NCBI GenBank assembly: GCA_030430575.1 | Contig: JAUIKF010000052.1 | Span: 1 to 61,064 of the forward strand | Length of the DNA: 61,064 nt | Direction of reading: 5' to 3' | Origin: Bacteroidia bacterium | Lineage (GTDB): Bacteria; Bacteroidota; Bacteroidia; J057 | Shown: positions 46,846 through 54,744 of the stretch, piece by piece | Layout of the letters: each line of letters begins with the position of its first letter | Numbering within the stretch: position 1 is the stretch's first letter | Translations under genes and position numbers: made by a program | Notes under the pieces: model-generated | Database searches by the model: none | What the model was told of the DNA's origin: nothing | Seen by the model: the letters and a program-made list of their open reading frames with translations, nothing else

Positions 46846-48291
46846 ATGAACATCCAACCAACGAGGGTCATTCAACCTGGCGATTTTGAGCCGAGCAACC
46901 ACTGGTATCCCAAAGCACTGAATGCCCAGATTCACCCCATGGTTGCTTATTTTATGAACCTGAAGCCTGAAAAGGTCATTAACAGGTATTGTCACCTGAA
47001 CCCAGCTGTCAATAAAGAAAAGTTACAGGAATTGATCTTGTATAGGCCTCGGTTTTTTCTGCATGCGGGGGCAGATCTTTTTCACGTGACCAATGCGGCA
47101 GGCAACCGAAAAATGGTCGTGATTGAAACCAATTCAAGCCCCTCTGGCCAGAAGTCCCTTCCGCTTCTTGATGACAATCAAGAGCAAGGCGGGTATTTGC
47201 GCTATGTGGAGGAGAGTTTTCTGCCTTATCTCAAAGCCAAACGGCCCAAGATCAAGGGAGGATTGGCAGTGATTTATGACAAAAATGAGATGGAAGCTTC
47301 GGGGTATGCATCAGCCATGGCTGATGTATTTCAAGAGCCTGTCTATTTGGTGCCTTTTTTTAGGTTTGACGAAAATCCGCCTGTGCGTTTTGTGGACCAT
47401 GTGATGGAAATTCGCCTGGAAGATGAAACCTGGGTACCCATTCGAGCGGCCTTCCGGTATGTCACCCAAAGGCCCTGGAACCGCATCCCTGTGCATACAA
47501 GGACAGTAATCCTCAACCCCATCATTACCTGTCTTGCGGGAGGCCGAAACAAGATGATCGCAGCGAAAGCTTATGATCTCTTTAATGCAGAAATTAGACC
47601 CTTTGGATTAGAAATTCGAACCCCTGAGACCATCTGGGATGTTCGCAAAAATGAAATTCCGCTTTGGGTCAGAAAAATGGGCGGGCAAGCAGTGATTAAG
47701 GTGCCGTATGGGAATGCCGGCCAAGGCGTCTACACGATTGTGAATGAGAAAGAGCTGGATGAGTTCATGGAAATGGATTTTTCCTATGACATGTTTATCG
47801 TTCAGAGCCTCATAGGCAACTACCAATGGAGCTCTACAGGGGTGAAAGGCAAATTCTTTCACGTAGGGACTATGCCCGACCGTCGAAATTTCTCCTATGC
47901 AGCAGATATACGGATGGTGGTTCACGGGACCAAAGATGGGTTGAAGCCCTTATGCGTTTATGCGCGAAGAGCCAGATTGCCACTTATAGATGAGTTGCAA
48001 GAAGGGAAAAGCTCTTGGGATATTCTGGGTACCAACCTCTCTATCAAGCAAGATGATGGCACTTTTACCACAGACAGTTCTAGGCTCATCATGATGGACC
48101 GCAAAGACTTTAATCGCCTGGGAATCAGTGTCGATGACCTGATAGAAGGGTATATTCAATCTGTCCTGGCTACCATTGCGATCGACAAGATGGCTACTAC
48201 GTTGATCAATAAAAAAGGACGCTTTAAGTCGCGCTTGTTTCGGTCACTGAATGATGATCCTTCATTGTTTGAGGAAATAAAACTTGAATAG
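46846..48291 (+). CDS. ATP-grasp-like protein of unknown substrate
   Basis: A 481-residue cytosolic protein. A central part resembles ATP-grasp ligases: VRKMGGQAVIKVPYGNAGQG (nucleotide-binding Lys and glycine loop), YDMFIVQSLIGNYQW and AADIRMVVHGTKDGLKPLCV (acidic/basic metal region). The N-terminal half (IETNSSPSGQKSLPLLDD) is unfamiliar. It starts 92 bases after the GNAT-nitrilase gene and stops one base before the next ATP-grasp gene, so translation is probably coupled. It may add an amino acid or carboxylate to an amine. Confidence 0.65.
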   Translation: MNIQPTRVIQPGDFEPSNHWYPKALNAQIHPMVAYFMNLKPEKVINRYCHLNPAVNKEKLQELILYRPRFFLHAGADLFHVTNAAGNRKMVVIETNSSPSGQKSLPLLDDNQEQGGYLRYVEESFLPYLKAKRPKIKGGLAVIYDKNEMEASGYASAMADVFQEPVYLVPFFRFDENPPVRFVDHVMEIRLEDETWVPIRAAFRYVTQRPWNRIPVHTRTVILNPIITCLAGGRNKMIAAKAYDLFNAEIRPFGLEIRTPETIWDVRKNEIPLWVRKMGGQAVIKVPYGNAGQGVYTIVNEKELDEFMEMDFSYDMFIVQSLIGNYQWSSTGVKGKFFHVGTMPDRRNFSYAADIRMVVHGTKDGLKPLCVYARRARLPLIDELQEGKSSWDILGTNLSIKQDDGTFTTDSSRLIMMDRKDFNRLGISVDDLIEGYIQSVLATIAIDKMATTLINKKGRFKSRLFRSLNDDPSLFEEIKLE

Positions 48292-48292
48292 C

Positions 48293-49303
48293 ATGAAAGG
48301 AAAATACGCTTTCTTGATCCTGACAGATCATCGGGTTCACAATCCCAGGAATCCTATCTACTACCTCGCCCGGCAAATCAATGCGCACCCCAATTGCACC
48401 TGTGTGCATATCGCAAGTCGGGGCAATCCCGCCAACGACGCTTTTTTTGCTCATCGAACCCAAGCTGATTTGGAAATACTTGAAGTTGATGAAAGCTTCA
48501 CTTTTGATGAAAGTGGAAAGCAATTTGTAGAAACTGGGAAAATAAAGCCATTAGATACGTATGATTGCATTTTGATGCGGCTTCCTAGACCCGTAGAAGC
48601 GGAGTTCATGACTTTTTTGGCAGATATAGCCGCAGACGTTGTCATCATTAACCATCCCCTGGGCATTGAAAAAACCAGCAACAAATCATTTTTGCTCAAT
48701 TTCCCAGAACTATGTCCTCCTATCAAATTGTGCTTCTCAGTACAAGAGATTCTGGAATTTGCTGCAAATTTTCCCATCGTTCTGAAGCCGCTTAAAGAGT
48801 ATGGGGGAAAAGGGATATTGAAGATTGAAGGGAAAACGCTTTATGAAGGGGGTCGTGAACATCAGGCACACGATTTTCTCAACAAACAAACGGCTTATAT
48901 TCAAAACCAGGGATACTTGGCGATGAAGTTTATGGAAGCAGTCTCTCAGGGGGATAAAAGAATCCTCCTGGTGGGGCGGACCATTATGGGAGCTTCCTTG
49001 CGCCTGCCCCCAGATGGATCTTGGCTGTGTAATGTCGCTCAAGGCGGGACTTCTGTTCCTGCTGAAGTGGCACCTGAGGAAGAACAAATTATTGAACATA
49101 TTGCGCCCTTTTTGGAAAAAGAGGGCATCTTGATAGCTGGGATTGATACCCTGATGGGAGATGAGGGAAAAAGGATTCTTTCAGAAATCAATACCCTCAG
49201 TGTAGGCGGATTTCTCAACATACAAGAACAAAGTGGTAAGCCCATTATTGCACAAACCATTCAACTAATCATTAATCATGTCGACCAAAAAATTAGCCGC
49301 TGA
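48293..49303 (+). CDS. ATP-grasp ligase resembling glutathione synthetase/RimK
   Basis: A 336-residue ligase. ATP-grasp landmarks: NHPLGIEKTSNKSFLLNFPE, PIVLKPLKEYGGKGILKIEG (P-loop-like), DKRILLVGRTIMGASLRLP and LSEINTLSVGGFLNIQEQSG (metal-binding Glu/Asn). The N-terminal domain (YLARQINAHPNCTCVHIASR and DCILMRLPRPVEAEF) is like prokaryotic glutathione synthetase. It is unlikely to be a housekeeping gshB because no gamma-glutamylcysteine ligase is nearby and it sits within a polyamine cluster. ATG 48293 follows the previous stop by one base; it overlaps the next gene by 26 bases. Confidence 0.8.
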   Translation: MKGKYAFLILTDHRVHNPRNPIYYLARQINAHPNCTCVHIASRGNPANDAFFAHRTQADLEILEVDESFTFDESGKQFVETGKIKPLDTYDCILMRLPRPVEAEFMTFLADIAADVVIINHPLGIEKTSNKSFLLNFPELCPPIKLCFSVQEILEFAANFPIVLKPLKEYGGKGILKIEGKTLYEGGREHQAHDFLNKQTAYIQNQGYLAMKFMEAVSQGDKRILLVGRTIMGASLRLPPDGSWLCNVAQGGTSVPAEVAPEEEQIIEHIAPFLEKEGILIAGIDTLMGDEGKRILSEINTLSVGGFLNIQEQSGKPIIAQTIQLIINHVDQKISR

Positions 49304-50261
49304 CCGAGATATTCCGATTGTCCTTGAATTTAATATTGAGGATACTCCTAGGCAATCCATCAGACACTATTGGCTAAAGATTATCTCCGATGGCTTGGGA
49401 AGCCCCATTTCTGTACCCTTGATGGTGGCGAGAGGGAAAGAAGATTTTCCCATTTTGGGACTCACTGCTGCAGTACATGGCAATGAGCTAAACGGAATTC
49501 CCGTGATCCAACGGCTGTTCAATGAAATTGACGTAGCGGACCTAAAAGGGACAATTGTTGGCGTCCCTGTGGTAAATATTCCTTCATTTATCAGAAAAAA
49601 GCGACGGTTTAATGATGGCGTAGACCTCAATCACATTATGCCAGGCAAGGAAAACGGGAATGTCAGTCAGGTATATGGGTACCGATTCATCGAAAGGGTG
49701 GTAAAACACTTTGACTATTTGCTCGATCTTCATACAGCTAGTTTTGGGCGGATAAACTCCTATTACATTCGGGCAGACATGAAACATCCTATCACGCGTA
49801 AACTGGCCCTGCTTCAAAATGCCCAGATCATTGTTCACAATCCTCCTTCCGACGGGACCCTCCGAGGGGCTGCCGAGTCTTTGGATATCCCCGCTATCAC
49901 CCTTGAGGTGGGCAATCCGAATACCTTCCAGAAAAAACTCATCCGAAGCGGAGTAGAAGGCATTCACAATGTCCTTTCCTATTTAGAAATGACAGAAGAC
50001 GAAATTGAAAAACCTGAAAATGAAGCTGTCATTTGTAAGCGTTCCTATTGGATATATACCGACACGGGGGGCTTGCTCACCATCCCTGTTAATTTAACTG
50101 ATCAGGTAAAAAAGGGCGATCTTATTGCGAGCCTCAGAGATGTGTTTGGCAACCTCACGCGTGAATACTTTGCGCCAGAAGATGGAATTGTCATTGGAAA
50201 AAGCGTAAGCCCTGTGAATCAATCAGGAGGCAGAATCCTGCATTTGGGGATTCTTAAGTGA
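49278..50261 (+). CDS. AstE/aspartoacylase-family zinc metallohydrolase
   Basis: A 327-residue M14-like enzyme. Zinc ligands: His and Glu in AAVHGNELNGIP (~68, ~71) and His in LLDLHTASFG (~151); VVNIPSFIRKKRRFNDGVDL holds the substrate Arg cluster and LDIPAITLEVGNP the later strand. The C-terminal ~90 residues form a barrel-sandwich-like domain (VKKGDLIASLRDVFGN). Relatives remove succinyl or acetyl groups or cut small amide bonds and are often encoded beside ATP-grasp ligases of the RimK type. Overlap with the upstream ligase gene shows tight coupling. It may trim the product or remove a protecting group. Confidence 0.85.
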   Translation: MSTKKLAADRDIPIVLEFNIEDTPRQSIRHYWLKIISDGLGSPISVPLMVARGKEDFPILGLTAAVHGNELNGIPVIQRLFNEIDVADLKGTIVGVPVVNIPSFIRKKRRFNDGVDLNHIMPGKENGNVSQVYGYRFIERVVKHFDYLLDLHTASFGRINSYYIRADMKHPITRKLALLQNAQIIVHNPPSDGTLRGAAESLDIPAITLEVGNPNTFQKKLIRSGVEGIHNVLSYLEMTEDEIEKPENEAVICKRSYWIYTDTGGLLTIPVNLTDQVKKGDLIASLRDVFGNLTREYFAPEDGIVIGKSVSPVNQSGGRILHLGILK

Positions 50262-50572: not shown

Positions 50573-53500
50573 CTAATACCTGGCAAAGCGAAACGAGAAT
50601 CGACTTGCTACTTCGGCGTCTTTGATCAGCCGCGCCATGCTCAATTGGTTTAATTGATCGACGCGGGCAGTAGTTTCAGGCGTGGGCGGCTCAGGAGGGT
50701 GCTGATCGTCTTCTTCAATTAATCCCGTCTTTATTTGCATCAAATGACAGAAGGCCGCCCATTCACCCCAAAGTTCTTCCTGCGTCCAGAATTTGCCCTC
50801 AAGGAATGTGCTTCTGGTAGAGATAATCAATTCTTGTAGCGTGGTTGCCTTGATCTGTTCAGGGGTCATGGTCACCCTTTCCTGATCCATTTTTTCAAAA
50901 AACCAAGCCGAAAAATGTGGAAGGCCCGTCACCATACTCAGCAAAAATACCATGGATTCATAGGAGCTAAGCACTTCCTGGTCCTCAGCTTTAGTGGATG
51001 ATTTCCCCCATCTGTCGTGAGATTTGATCAGGCGGCAGGTATTGATAAAGCGCTTCACAGCGCGGGGGCTGTCGCTGAGGATAGGCGTAAGCGTTTTGAT
51101 AAAACGCTTCTCATCGGGCGTGAGCTTCGCTTTGGCAAAGTGGCGGGGGGCCTTCGCCGACTTTTTGGGAGGCTCAGGTGTAGTAGAAACAGGTGCATCC
51201 TCGTTTTCCAACGGTTCCCCTTCGGGAGTTTCATTTGTTTGTGGGATAATGCTTTGAGATTCCTGTTTTTGATCAAGGTTAGAGACAGGAGGTAGCTCAT
51301 CTTCTGCCATTTGTTTTTGCTCAGGCAAATTAACGTTATCCAATAAAGCATCAACTTCTGATTGGGATAATGAATCCGTTGTCTTGGGCGTTTCTGCCTC
51401 CTCAATATCTCCCTTCAACAAATCATCGATATAGTCCAATTTAGCCTGCTGGTTCATGGGTTTGAGGCGGAAGGGGATTTGGAAAATCTTTTCGAGGTAG
51501 TCGTATTGGGTGCCACTTCCGATCAGTCCCCCTTCTTCTGGATGGTCGTCATCTTGGGGAAAAAGGTCATCTACCGCCAAGACCGACGGTCGGAGCATGC
51601 TTCCGTATTGCTTCAACAAGGACTTGGAGATCCAACGGACATCTACACCTACCACTACGACAAACAGCGGAAACGCCAATATCAGGTGGATGGCCTGCAA
51701 GACCTCCACCACCTTGTCCGGTGGGCATCGGTCGAGGTCGTCAATGTATAGGATAATGCGGTCTATCTTATTCTTGGGATTTAGCGCAATTTTTCGAATC
51801 AAAGACTCTTTTTCCCTAATTTTTTCACTTTCATCCATCTGTTCAAAGCGGCTGGTTTGGACCACATCCTTATTGTGGAGGTAATCTGTCAGACGGTTGA
51901 AGTCCTCCCGAATGATGGATACGAGACCGAGGTACCGCTGATATTCATTGCTCCCAATCCGGTTTTCGAGGAAATGAGATAGATGACGCCCCTTTTCAAT
52001 ATCGTCCAGTTCTTCTATGGCTTTGTTGCTATCGAGATCAACCTGGGAGAGCCTTGTATGTAGGTCTTCCTCTTGCTTTATAAGGCTATCATACTTCGAC
52101 TGCAATGCGTCAATTTGAGCATTTATCTGATGGGAAGCTTGGTCTTCTAATTGCTTTCGGGCTGTCTCGAGGGTAGTCAAACCAGCCTTAGCTGTGTCCA
52201 ATATCGTCTCAGCATGCGGGATGACCTTACCCAATAACCCCAGCAGTCCTGTCATGGCAGCCACCACAATAGTGGCAAACTCAACGATCCCACTTCCAAC
52301 CTTCGTGAGGTTCAGGTCATCTACTTTCGTCAGGCCCCACATGGCCAGTAACGGCACCACAATTACAAGCAGCAGTGCCAAAAAGGGTTTCCACCCCTTG
52401 ACTGGGCTAAACGACTTCATGACCATGGCAGTCTGCTTCCAGGTAGAATGATAATCCTTGATGACCTCATCTATTTTCATCCCTCTTTCGATAAGGTCTT
52501 TAGAGGTTTCAGAAAGAGGAGTCATTCCCAGTTTTTCCGAACCTTCCTTGATCATCTTCTTGACAGTATCATCCTCCTGAACTAAGGTTTTGATCGTTTG
52601 GGTGAGGGAAATACCTTCGAGGGAATTCTTAATTTTTTCTTTATCAGTGGTCAACGTCCCTAACTGTTTTTCCAACTCCGCTTTTTCAGACGCCATACGC
52701 CGCCGAGTCGCCTTTGCTTCGGCCTTGATAGCCTCAGTCGTCGCCAGTTTTTCATACAGTTTTATTTCCTCTTTTTCCTCCTCGCTTTTATTGCCTACAT
52801 AGAGGGAGAGTTGAGAAAGGATAAAAGTGATGAGGCTGGCCCATAAGTTACTGTCCATATAGTGCCATGCGTTGAATTCTATTTGGGCGATATTCCTACA
52901 AAAACCAGCCTTTTCCTCTTCTTTGTCAGATACCAAACGCTTATAAATGTGAACTCCATGCCGTTTCTTTTCTGGTTTATCAGACCTTATCTTCTCTAGG
53001 ATGCGGTCACGCTCTTTCAACTTCTTCTCCGCGAGCAAGTGTAAAAAAGCGTCGCTTGCAGTGTCTCCTCCCTCCCTTACCCACTCACGGATGATGGCTT
53101 CAGTCTGATTTTTGGCTTTGGCCATTCGCTGCTCGGGCGTGAGCTTTTTTTGCACCTCTGTGGTAGCATTGGTGATTTCTGCATTAGATAGGGAATCAGT
53201 CTTGTCCGCTTGTGGCACTGTCTCATAGATCAGTTGTTGGACCTGATAGACGCTTTTAGCTTTGCCTTCGAGGACGCCTTTCCGGAGCTTGTCGTATTGA
53301 ACTTCCTCAGACACCATGAGGGATTCCAACGCATCGGCTTGCTGGGCGGGAGATTGTGCCAAAAAGGTTTCTAATGCCTTCTCGGCTTCGGCTTCCAGGT
53401 AATTGTTCACCCCCCCAACTAGTGTATCCACCTCTTCCTTGAGCTTCTCCATGAAAAAACTTTTCCCCGAACCCCAATCGCCAAATAGCCCGATAGAAAG

Positions 53501-53995
53501 CGGTGGTTTCAACTCTTTAGAAGCGACCAATTTGGTGAATGCCCAGACGTCAGGCATGATGCCGAGCTTGTCTTCGCCTTTGTCGGAATCCGAACTGTAG
53601 GAGGCACCGAGGACGGTGTCGATATTGGAAACTGGGGCCTCTGTAACCTCAATATTGGATTTTTCCTGAGGTTCATCTTGCTCAAGAGATGAGGCAGTTT
53701 TTTCTCTTTTTTCAAAAAAGAATTCGCCCCCTCCATCTCCCGCCTCTCGAATACGGCCGCTAATAGGAATCTGTCTGTAATTGCTTGCTGTTGCTTCCTT
53801 TACAAATTGGGCGAGGTCCACAAAAGAAGAATATTCATCTTCATTTTGTTCCAAAAACCTCGTAATCGCTCGCATGAAGGGCGTTCCTTTCCCTGATTCA
53901 CCATCACTAATAGAACTCCCTTGACCTGAAATTAAGGCCCAACGGGAGGGGTTTTCTGAAATGCGCCTTGTATGTTGATCGGGAGGAGCAGCCAT
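50573..53995 (-). CDS. KAP-family P-loop NTPase with N-terminal caspase p10-like segment
   Basis: An 1140-residue protein. Residues ~10-95 (SRWALISGQGSSISDGESGK then GTPFMRAITRFLEQN and IPISGRI) look like the C-terminal half (p10) of a bacterial caspase-like domain, whose first half is encoded by the neighbouring gene. From ~140 on it is a KAP NTPase: Walker A LFGDWGSGKSFFMEKL (~170-185), a long coiled-coil insertion, two membrane helices (FLALLLVIVVPLLAMWGL ~537; VAAMTGLLGLLG ~573), and Walker B IILYIDDLDRCPPDKVVEVL (~750). A Glu/Pro-rich linker precedes the C-terminal helical domain. KAP ATPases are membrane-associated and recurrent in phage-defence loci. It starts 23 bases after the p20-like gene. 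Confidence 0.85.
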   Translation of the reverse strand: MAAPPDQHTRRISENPSRWALISGQGSSISDGESGKGTPFMRAITRFLEQNEDEYSSFVDLAQFVKEATASNYRQIPISGRIREAGDGGGEFFFEKREKTASSLEQDEPQEKSNIEVTEAPVSNIDTVLGASYSSDSDKGEDKLGIMPDVWAFTKLVASKELKPPLSIGLFGDWGSGKSFFMEKLKEEVDTLVGGVNNYLEAEAEKALETFLAQSPAQQADALESLMVSEEVQYDKLRKGVLEGKAKSVYQVQQLIYETVPQADKTDSLSNAEITNATTEVQKKLTPEQRMAKAKNQTEAIIREWVREGGDTASDAFLHLLAEKKLKERDRILEKIRSDKPEKKRHGVHIYKRLVSDKEEEKAGFCRNIAQIEFNAWHYMDSNLWASLITFILSQLSLYVGNKSEEEKEEIKLYEKLATTEAIKAEAKATRRRMASEKAELEKQLGTLTTDKEKIKNSLEGISLTQTIKTLVQEDDTVKKMIKEGSEKLGMTPLSETSKDLIERGMKIDEVIKDYHSTWKQTAMVMKSFSPVKGWKPFLALLLVIVVPLLAMWGLTKVDDLNLTKVGSGIVEFATIVVAAMTGLLGLLGKVIPHAETILDTAKAGLTTLETARKQLEDQASHQINAQIDALQSKYDSLIKQEEDLHTRLSQVDLDSNKAIEELDDIEKGRHLSHFLENRIGSNEYQRYLGLVSIIREDFNRLTDYLHNKDVVQTSRFEQMDESEKIREKESLIRKIALNPKNKIDRIILYIDDLDRCPPDKVVEVLQAIHLILAFPLFVVVVGVDVRWISKSLLKQYGSMLRPSVLAVDDLFPQDDDHPEEGGLIGSGTQYDYLEKIFQIPFRLKPMNQQAKLDYIDDLLKGDIEEAETPKTTDSLSQSEVDALLDNVNLPEQKQMAEDELPPVSNLDQKQESQSIIPQTNETPEGEPLENEDAPVSTTPEPPKKSAKAPRHFAKAKLTPDEKRFIKTLTPILSDSPRAVKRFINTCRLIKSHDRWGKSSTKAEDQEVLSSYESMVFLLSMVTGLPHFSAWFFEKMDQERVTMTPEQIKATTLQELIISTRSTFLEGKFWTQEELWGEWAAFCHLMQIKTGLIEEDDQHPPEPPTPETTARVDQLNQLSMARLIKDAEVASRFSFRFARY

Positions 53996-54018
53996 GGAAT
54001 TATTGTTTATAGGAATGA

Positions 54019-54573
54019 TTATTTTTTGGTTTTGGGCCTTCTTTTTTGCTGATAATCAATGGTGGGATCACTTCGCTGTTTGGAACCAGGTTCTCTACTT
54101 CTCCTTCGAGGCTCTATCAAGAGGGATTCTTGAAAAGCTGCATCAGCAATGATCGCAATATGCTTAGCTTTGCTCGTTTCCATAAAGCGAGTGATTTCGT
54201 CCAAGGGGATTAGGGTGGAACGTTTCTCTATTTCTGCATCCACAGGCACCCAATATCCCCTATCCCCAGAAGGGTCCGTATTTCCATGGCCGATATATAC
54301 CATTAGCAGGTTGTCATCAGCGTCTATTCTGGATGACAATTCATCCAACGCCTTATAGATCGTGTCCCTAGTGGCATCGCTATCATATAACGCATAGACA
54401 TTTTCCATGTCAAAGGTGTATTTCTCCGTTAAAACAGCCATCAACCGTTTTGCATCCAGCACTGCATTGCGGAGGGGAGAAAGGTGAAGATAGGCATTTA
54501 TGGCTATCACTAGGAGAAAGTTTCGGCCTCGTGTGAGGGGTTGGTTTTCCAAATCTGATAGGTTAATGGCCAT
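54019..54573 (-). CDS. caspase p20-like protein lacking the catalytic Cys
   Basis: A 184-residue protein matching the large (p20) half of caspase/metacaspase folds: RNFLLVIAINAYLHLSPLRN, VLDAKRLMAVLTEKYTF, LLMVYIGHGNTD (catalytic His ~96), RGYWVPVDAE and IAIIADAAFQESLL. The family normally has Asp-(Ser/Ala)-Cys-(Phe/Tyr); here the codons are GAT-GCA-GCT-TTT, so the Cys is Ala146. The C-terminus (RRSREPGSKQRSDP ... QQKRRPKTKK) is basic and disordered. The p10 half is at the start of the next gene, 23 bases away. It is probably a pseudo-protease working as a binding or signalling subunit. Confidence 0.82.
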   Translation of the reverse strand: MAINLSDLENQPLTRGRNFLLVIAINAYLHLSPLRNAVLDAKRLMAVLTEKYTFDMENVYALYDSDATRDTIYKALDELSSRIDADDNLLMVYIGHGNTDPSGDRGYWVPVDAEIEKRSTLIPLDEITRFMETSKAKHIAIIADAAFQESLLIEPRRRSREPGSKQRSDPTIDYQQKRRPKTKK

Positions 54574-54599: not shown

Positions 54600-54715
54600 A
54601 GGTGAAGATAAGGATTTTGGAGAAAAGAATAGGGAAAAGAGAATAGGGAAAAGAGACAAAAAGCTTTTCCCTTCTCCCTTCTCCCTTCTCCCTATTCTCT
54701 CCTCCCTCCTCCCCT
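54600..54715. repeat. GAATAGGGAAAAGA / CTTCTCCCTTCTCCC stutter hairpin
   Basis: Purine-rich words (GAATAGGGAAAAGAGAATAG) and their pyrimidine complements (TTTTCCCTTCTCCCTTCTCC) face each other in the divergent gap, so it can fold back. It lies between the caspase-like gene and the lectin-like gene and probably surrounds both promoters. Confidence 0.6.
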
Positions 54716-54744
54716 AAATCCCAATTTTTCCCTATCTTCCCTTC

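Follow-up and report, generated by a model that had tools for sequence, protein, structure and literature searches.

A metacaspase-type domain without its catalytic cysteine, divided between two adjacent genes and joined to a KAP NTPase in a Bacteroidia bacterium

The stretch of DNA analysed here, referred to as the window, comprises 61,064 nucleotides of contig JAUIKF010000052.1 (GenBank assembly GCA_030430575.1) from a Bacteroidia bacterium, and this study concerns a pair of genes on its minus strand. The first is an open reading frame (ORF) of 184 residues at 54573-54019 that encodes a p20-like pseudo-caspase, recognised with the Pfam family PF00656 and with a p20 profile hidden Markov model (HMM) built for this work. 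The second, at 53995-50573, encodes a KAP P-loop nucleoside triphosphatase (NTPase) of 1140 residues (PF07693) whose N-terminus is a caspase p10. Both ORFs run in the same direction, in different frames, and a gap of 23 bases (53996..54018) separates the stop of p20 from the KAP ATG. Sequence comparison indicates, beyond chance, that one metacaspase-type domain is divided between these two adjacent genes.

Residues 19-160 of the p20 ORF matched PF00656 in the Pfam scan with E=2.7e-15 (57.1 bits against a cut-off of 21.4), and the purpose-built HMM matched with E=4.5e-44; the p20 is of the metacaspase type. A structural model from a three-row alignment was of low confidence, with a mean predicted local distance difference test (pLDDT) of 60.0, and its best PDB matches in Foldseek were metacaspases, led by the yeast metacaspase Yca1 (E=9.2e-5). 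The NCBIfam model for EACC1-associated caspases (NF047832) gave 43.8 bits, below its cut-off of 140.

The catalytic residues were assessed against p20s collected from the genome of the window and from its relatives, a set of 69 distinct sequences after removal of duplicates and including the window itself. His96 of the GHG motif (54286..54288, minus strand) was retained, as it was in 67/67 others readable at this column, and the catalytic Cys was replaced by Ala146, encoded by GCT at 54138-54136, leaving the His-Cys dyad of an active metacaspase incomplete. Cys occupied this column in 65 of the 67 other readable p20s, the remaining two showing one Thr (L157) and one X, and the window was the only Cys-to-Ala case among the 69. 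Three residues further on, a Gly present in 67/67 readable others was changed to Glu (G149E). Since both positions are altered, proteolysis is unlikely, as an earlier note on this DNA had proposed from the retained His and the Ala codon; its suggestion of looking at how conserved the Cys is elsewhere is answered by the same counts. Six other p20 matches were present in the genome, every one with the Cys. The Thr-bearing p20 (L157, G047:C10) had a weak p10 match in its own ORF (4e-7) and is possibly a second pseudo-metacaspase.

The other half of the domain was found on the next ORF. Pfam reported nothing at E<=1 in KAP residues 1-132. Residues 3-112 matched the p10 of a PF00656 caspase from the same genome (G000:C1) at 39% identity (E=1.3e-15), the best among many caspases whose p10 parts matched the KAP N-terminus, and a p10 HMM made from relatives matched the KAP protein with E=3.6e-21. 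These matches place the p10-like domain at KAP residues ~15-106 (53678..53953, minus strand). On a single full-caspase HMM the p20 ORF covered positions 5-157 and the KAP ORF positions 156-256, and the break between the halves lies, by this alignment, in the interdomain p20/p10 linker. Between the Cys column and the SR motif of p10 there were 18-37 residues in 65 fused caspases; in the window there were 38 residues in the p20 ORF and a further 16 in the KAP ORF. Both the placing of a p10-like half at the start of a membrane-spanning KAP NTPase 23 bases downstream, and the idea that two genes share one caspase domain, had been put forward in the earlier note and were borne out.

A p10 in the same ORF was detected at E<=1e-3 for 61 of the 69 p20s, the window being among the eight without. 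Of the other seven, L154 was cut by a contig end and six lacked such a p10, three of which (L044, L189, L192) ran past the end of the available DNA. When p10s were considered at E<=0.1, only the window and a fragment at a contig start (L146) had one without a p20 in the same ORF. The window therefore held the only complete p20 in the set with its p10 on a separate ORF, and the single chain of p20 and p10 that characterises type I metacaspases is here two ORFs in different frames. Elsewhere, a caspase at L030:2-2097 (G044:C1) was broken over two ORFs inside the p20 itself and is probably an interrupted gene, and a single protein at L034:223-2412 (G000:C1) combined caspase, FGE-sulfatase and HSP70 matches.

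At alignment columns conserved in >=80% of sequences, the window kept 40 of 47; the changes were G24A, Y92V, C146A and G149E in p20 and E27S, V29I and S38T in p10, several of them near the active site. Judged from the alignment, this pattern fits an enzyme that lost its activity and retained much of its fold, and it also fits relaxed selection. Separate p20 and p10 trees, each with the same 55 taxa, both grouped the window with G004:C288 and G002:C314, two caspases that on reading each occupy one ORF and carry repeat or FGE-like tails. In the p20 tree L018 was closest to the window (support 52) and the group of four had a support of 35; the corresponding p10 group had 60. By tree distance the nearest p20 was G004:C288, and the window branches were long (0.85 and 1.35). 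With support this weak, the agreement of the trees is suggestive, and no more, of an origin of both halves from one caspase.

The KAP protein matched PF07693 in three pieces (E=2e-26), as expected of a KAP family member, and was aligned with 77 relatives. Walker A (GDWGSGKS, residues 172-179, 53459..53482) carried G172, G175, G177 and K178 in 78/78 rows, and Walker B (YIDDLDRC, residues 750-757, 51725..51748) carried D752, D753, D755 and R756 in 78/78 rows; indeed no row differed at the key positions of the Walker A, FNAW (F, N, W), Walker B and PR motifs. The interval from Walker A to Walker B contains two hydrophobic segments, at residues 538-556 (52328..52384) and 570-588 (52232..52288), and by hydropathy only these are probable membrane helices inserted into the NTPase domain. 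Hydrophobic 19-mers scoring >1.6 between FNAW and Walker B numbered two in 35/78 rows and one in 43/78. The spacing from Walker A to FNAW was 195 residues in the window versus 29-96 (median 34) in the 77 relatives, and alignment and model together outlined a predicted helical insertion of ~150 residues (within 52901..53428; this and the preceding KAP features all on the minus strand) that was not seen in the 77 aligned relatives. It was mostly helix in the KAP model, partly at low confidence, and no family was assigned to it; it did not occur a second time in the genome, and the only match, to a DnaK model, was weak and far under cut-off. The KAP model as a whole had a mean pLDDT of 68.8 and no PDB match at E<=0.001. 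Alignment by sequence returned just five PDB chains (E 0.025-0.075), named mostly as coiled-coil proteins.

Relatives of the KAP protein came from one scan of genome contigs, of which the best 80 of 386 were taken further, together with up to 7 kb of flanking DNA per side (less where a contig end was close). I scanned 87 N-termini, namely those of the window, seven relatives from other searches and 79 of the best 80 (L124 was dropped as too short). Among the 25 of 76 families listed, TIR occurred in 8/87, Clp_N and EVE in three each, and WD40 and kinase domains in two each. In a further scan of nine, EAD11 was found in L055, Trypsin_2 (just below cut-off) with Clp_N in L114, and Clp_N in L122, with no match in the other six. 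The L055 protein (L055:2738-6271, from a Saprospiraceae metagenome-assembled genome) was the best-scoring relative of the scan and carried its N-terminal EAD11 in two stretches. The N-terminal domain is thus exchangeable across the family. The window's own genome had 14 EAD11 matches, 13 of them above cut-off, versus one of 14 control genomes with a match and none above cut-off, which suggests that this genome encodes many EAD-type conflict proteins. Close same-strand neighbours at 85 KAP loci numbered 26 upstream and 35 downstream; no constant partner gene was seen, since the commonest Pfam family among the 48 of 61 neighbour proteins scanned occurred in only 3/48.

Caspases were then sought near these relatives. 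No p20 or p10 was matched by the purpose-built HMMs at E<=1 in the DNA fetched around the best 80 of 386, and no caspase was matched at KAP loci in 100 relatives, 395 genomes of the phylum and 395 of the class, bar that of the window; there is overlap among these samples, and at some loci, such as L239, the N-terminal end of the frame is truncated. The KAP protein gave no pattern match in viral contigs, none in phages at E<=1e-3, and six plasmid records, in five of which (L050, L051, L052, L053, L054) inspection revealed no caspase match. The p20 matched eight plasmid records, all at <60% identity, and caspase scans of viral contigs returned distant relatives only, the match at L207 sitting in an apparently different ATPase. 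On the Haliscomenobacter plasmid NC_015511.1 (15154-15597), a protein annotated as NACHT matched the p20 at 35.8% and is a possible caspase-NTPase relative. The KAP relatives on the Rhizobiaceae plasmids L050 and L052 lay near genes for SIR2 and nucleoside deoxyribosyltransferase, or for DarT and a macro domain, and that of L052 had an N-terminal TIR. The relative on Microscilla pSD15 (L051:3233-5466) is possibly broken, its N-terminal part and a short KAP match being in different frames.

The flanking genes on both sides of the p20/KAP pair are on the plus strand, and the two genes therefore stand as an isolated pair. In a related genome (G005), three genes corresponding to 46846-50261 were retained at 65-90% identity and were followed by another gene in place of the pair, with no p20 or KAP match within the 16 kb examined; the pair is consequently either a lineage-specific gain in the window or a loss in that relative. 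Pfam assigned the neighbours to ATP-grasp, AstE/AspA, a legume-type lectin, a LytTR regulator, a CN-hydrolase with acetyltransferase, and deoxyhypusine synthase, with one neighbour lacking a match. A defence island was considered for the window and was not supported, as the families of these neighbours (n=7) are not of a defence type. Positions 54600-54744, where the p20 and lectin genes diverge, contain purine- and pyrimidine-rich inverted repeats; as single-stranded DNA, 4/200 shuffles folded equally well or better (z -2.26).

The likeliest reading of the pair, put forward tentatively, is that the split pseudo-caspase may serve as a docking module with a regulatory or sensing role that gates the membrane KAP ATPase. 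The KAP family would act as a modular switch with an N-terminal slot open to effector, adaptor or sensor domains; in the window this slot would hold the p10, onto which the separately made p20 would dock and complete the caspase beta-sheet. Because there is no Cys and hence no cutting, the assembled fold would be a binding module, which may sense a ligand or peptide or recruit partners, for example intact caspases of the same cell, comparable to cFLIP with caspase-8. cFLIP itself consists of a single chain that includes death-effector domains. By docking or leaving, p20 would then control the nucleotide state of the KAP domain together with its membrane hairpin, and the outcome may be that an invader or stress provokes a cell-limiting response. 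A bolder version, which is rather doubtful, treats the pair as a two-piece docking device, with p10 as a receptor on the NTPase and p20 as a subunit that can come off; the completion of strands between the halves of a dead enzyme would then stand in for small adaptors such as EADs or death domains. As the break sits in the linker that is cleaved upon caspase activation, the genome would encode a permanently 'processed' pseudo-caspase.

Several observations weigh against a gating role of the split pseudo-caspase. The p10 part was of low confidence in the KAP model, none of the seven Pfam-scanned neighbours had a defence-type match, and by tree distance the nearest p10 was a caspase of the window's own genome (L198) rather than G004:C288. 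Furthermore, the look for homologous pairs that the earlier note had recommended found no second caspase-KAP pair in the best 80 of 386 scan relatives and the genome samples examined, and a single example offers no evidence of conservation. A larger changed fraction of conserved columns than in the window was seen in 5/60 others, which is also compatible with relaxed selection. The reading frames of the linker add to this. In the p20 ORF, the p20 frame was the best of three by codon scoring from the start to ~54093, free of stops, and its score was near zero at the end, while the +1 frame, open over 54000..54113 (minus strand; stop at 54002-54000), scored 7.15 bits better from 54113 over 31 codons. 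Of 3542 control windows, 15 were as extreme, and the true significance is weaker because the stretch was chosen after inspection. The final ~30 residues assigned to the p20 ORF may hence be in the wrong frame; a genuine indel would move the end of p20 to 54000, leaving four bases ahead of the KAP ATG.

These scores bear on the possibility of decay, in which an ancestral caspase-KAP fusion lost its protease function and acquired one or more linker indels, leaving p20 as a useless remnant and KAP translated from an internal ATG. The coincidence of active-site loss with the split would be accounted for in this way, as would the frame score of the p20 tail and the number of changed columns. However, the stop-free p20 frame that scores best down to ~54093, the retention of most conserved columns and the intact NTPase motifs speak against it, and decay is judged unlikely. 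The earlier note had allowed that homologues with a single fused ORF would mark the split as a recent frameshift: no fused caspase-KAP ORF was found in the parts examined (the best 80 of 386 and the genome samples), so this part of its case stood, while the frame scores of the linker leave room for a frameshift.

An error of sequencing or assembly would produce a similar picture, the true gene being either one fused pseudo-caspase-KAP ORF or a p20 ending in another frame just before the KAP ATG. Across the linker the best frame shifts from f0 through f1 to f2, the final 40 bases of p20 include two runs of six A, and 54055-54019 is open in the p20 frame as well as in the KAP frame, so that one shift there would join the two genes, a further point against a true split. 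A fusion made by such a shift would, however, have a linker of ~62 residues from the Cys site to the p10 SR motif, beyond the range of the fused caspases; the f1 stretch, if it is the true tail, has its own stop; and the Cys-to-Ala change is independent of the frame question. An error of this kind is considered fairly improbable. Slippage of the ribosome on the A-runs close to the end of p20 could also yield a fused product; no canonical slippery site was seen by eye.

It is very unlikely, finally, that p20 acts apart from KAP by binding other caspases of the genome in a dominant-negative way, with the p10 of KAP forming a separate recruiting surface. The genome does offer Cys-bearing p20s as potential partners, and cFLIP and TbMC4 are precedents cited in passages of PMC6426788, but the adjacency of the genes and the abutting ranges on one profile favour a single shared domain. 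If the pair is real and functional in the way proposed for a docking module, it would be a new link between a death-type domain and an NTPase switch, made of one fold split over two proteins, and would offer a compact bacterial model in which pseudo-caspase signalling can be tested. More broadly, the membrane KAP family, with 386 relatives in one scan and N-termini that include TIR, trypsin-like, kinase, EAD11 and other domains, looks like a group of under-described conflict proteins.

Among known systems, the type I metacaspases (PF00656) provide the common p20 and p10 families, with listed matches at 27-44% (p20) and 25-39% (p10) identity; the window differs in having two ORFs, an Ala for the nucleophile and a p10 joined to KAP. 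Loss of the His-Cys dyad is shared with the pseudo-metacaspases and pseudo-orthocaspases treated in sections of PMC6426788, where a survey found a substituted dyad in 4/1,121 bacterial metacaspases and where His-Ala is among the dyad combinations of Rhizobiales pseudo-orthocaspases; the word 'split' is absent from the main text of that paper. The titles and abstract openings of the openly licensed papers listed contained no split p20/p10 caspase and no such arrangement with KAP; a text search of PMC4933709 for KAP gave unrelated words only, and the transmembrane passages of PMC9122126 did not contain KAP as a whole word. The impression in the earlier note that the arrangement is unfamiliar was upheld by the named defence families: the PADLOC models for Qat, PifA and PDC-S20 matched in part around Walker B and not over their full length, and NCBIfam QatA scored 63.6 against a cut-off of 600. 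The KAP fold is common to the phage-defence NTPases QatA, PifA and Tmn, the last being, by the description in part of PMC11846954, a KAP NTPase that has a pair of unusual transmembrane domains, and the matches of the window to QatA and PifA types are partial.

As a works-like comparison only, with no membership claimed, cFLIP and caspase-8 illustrate a dead caspase fold as a regulator (in the relevant passage of PMC6426788). The EAD-type NTPase conflict systems covered in portions of PMC8195603 and PMC7159879 resemble the pair in having an NTPase whose N-terminal effector or adaptor can be exchanged. There, KAP can substitute for STAND NTPases, with a caspase, trypsin, TIR or kinase at the N-terminus (PMC8195603, in part), and in MoxR-vWA systems ~70% of the caspases in the effector position are inactive and are suggested to be dominant-negative or peptide-binding (PMC7159879, in part). 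The window differs from these systems in that the Pfam scan of its proteins gave no EAD match, and in that the caspase is delivered as two halves. By analogy, the pair fits an effector-slot variant of the published EAD-type/KAP conflict systems, and its unusual point is that the dead domain is divided between two genes.

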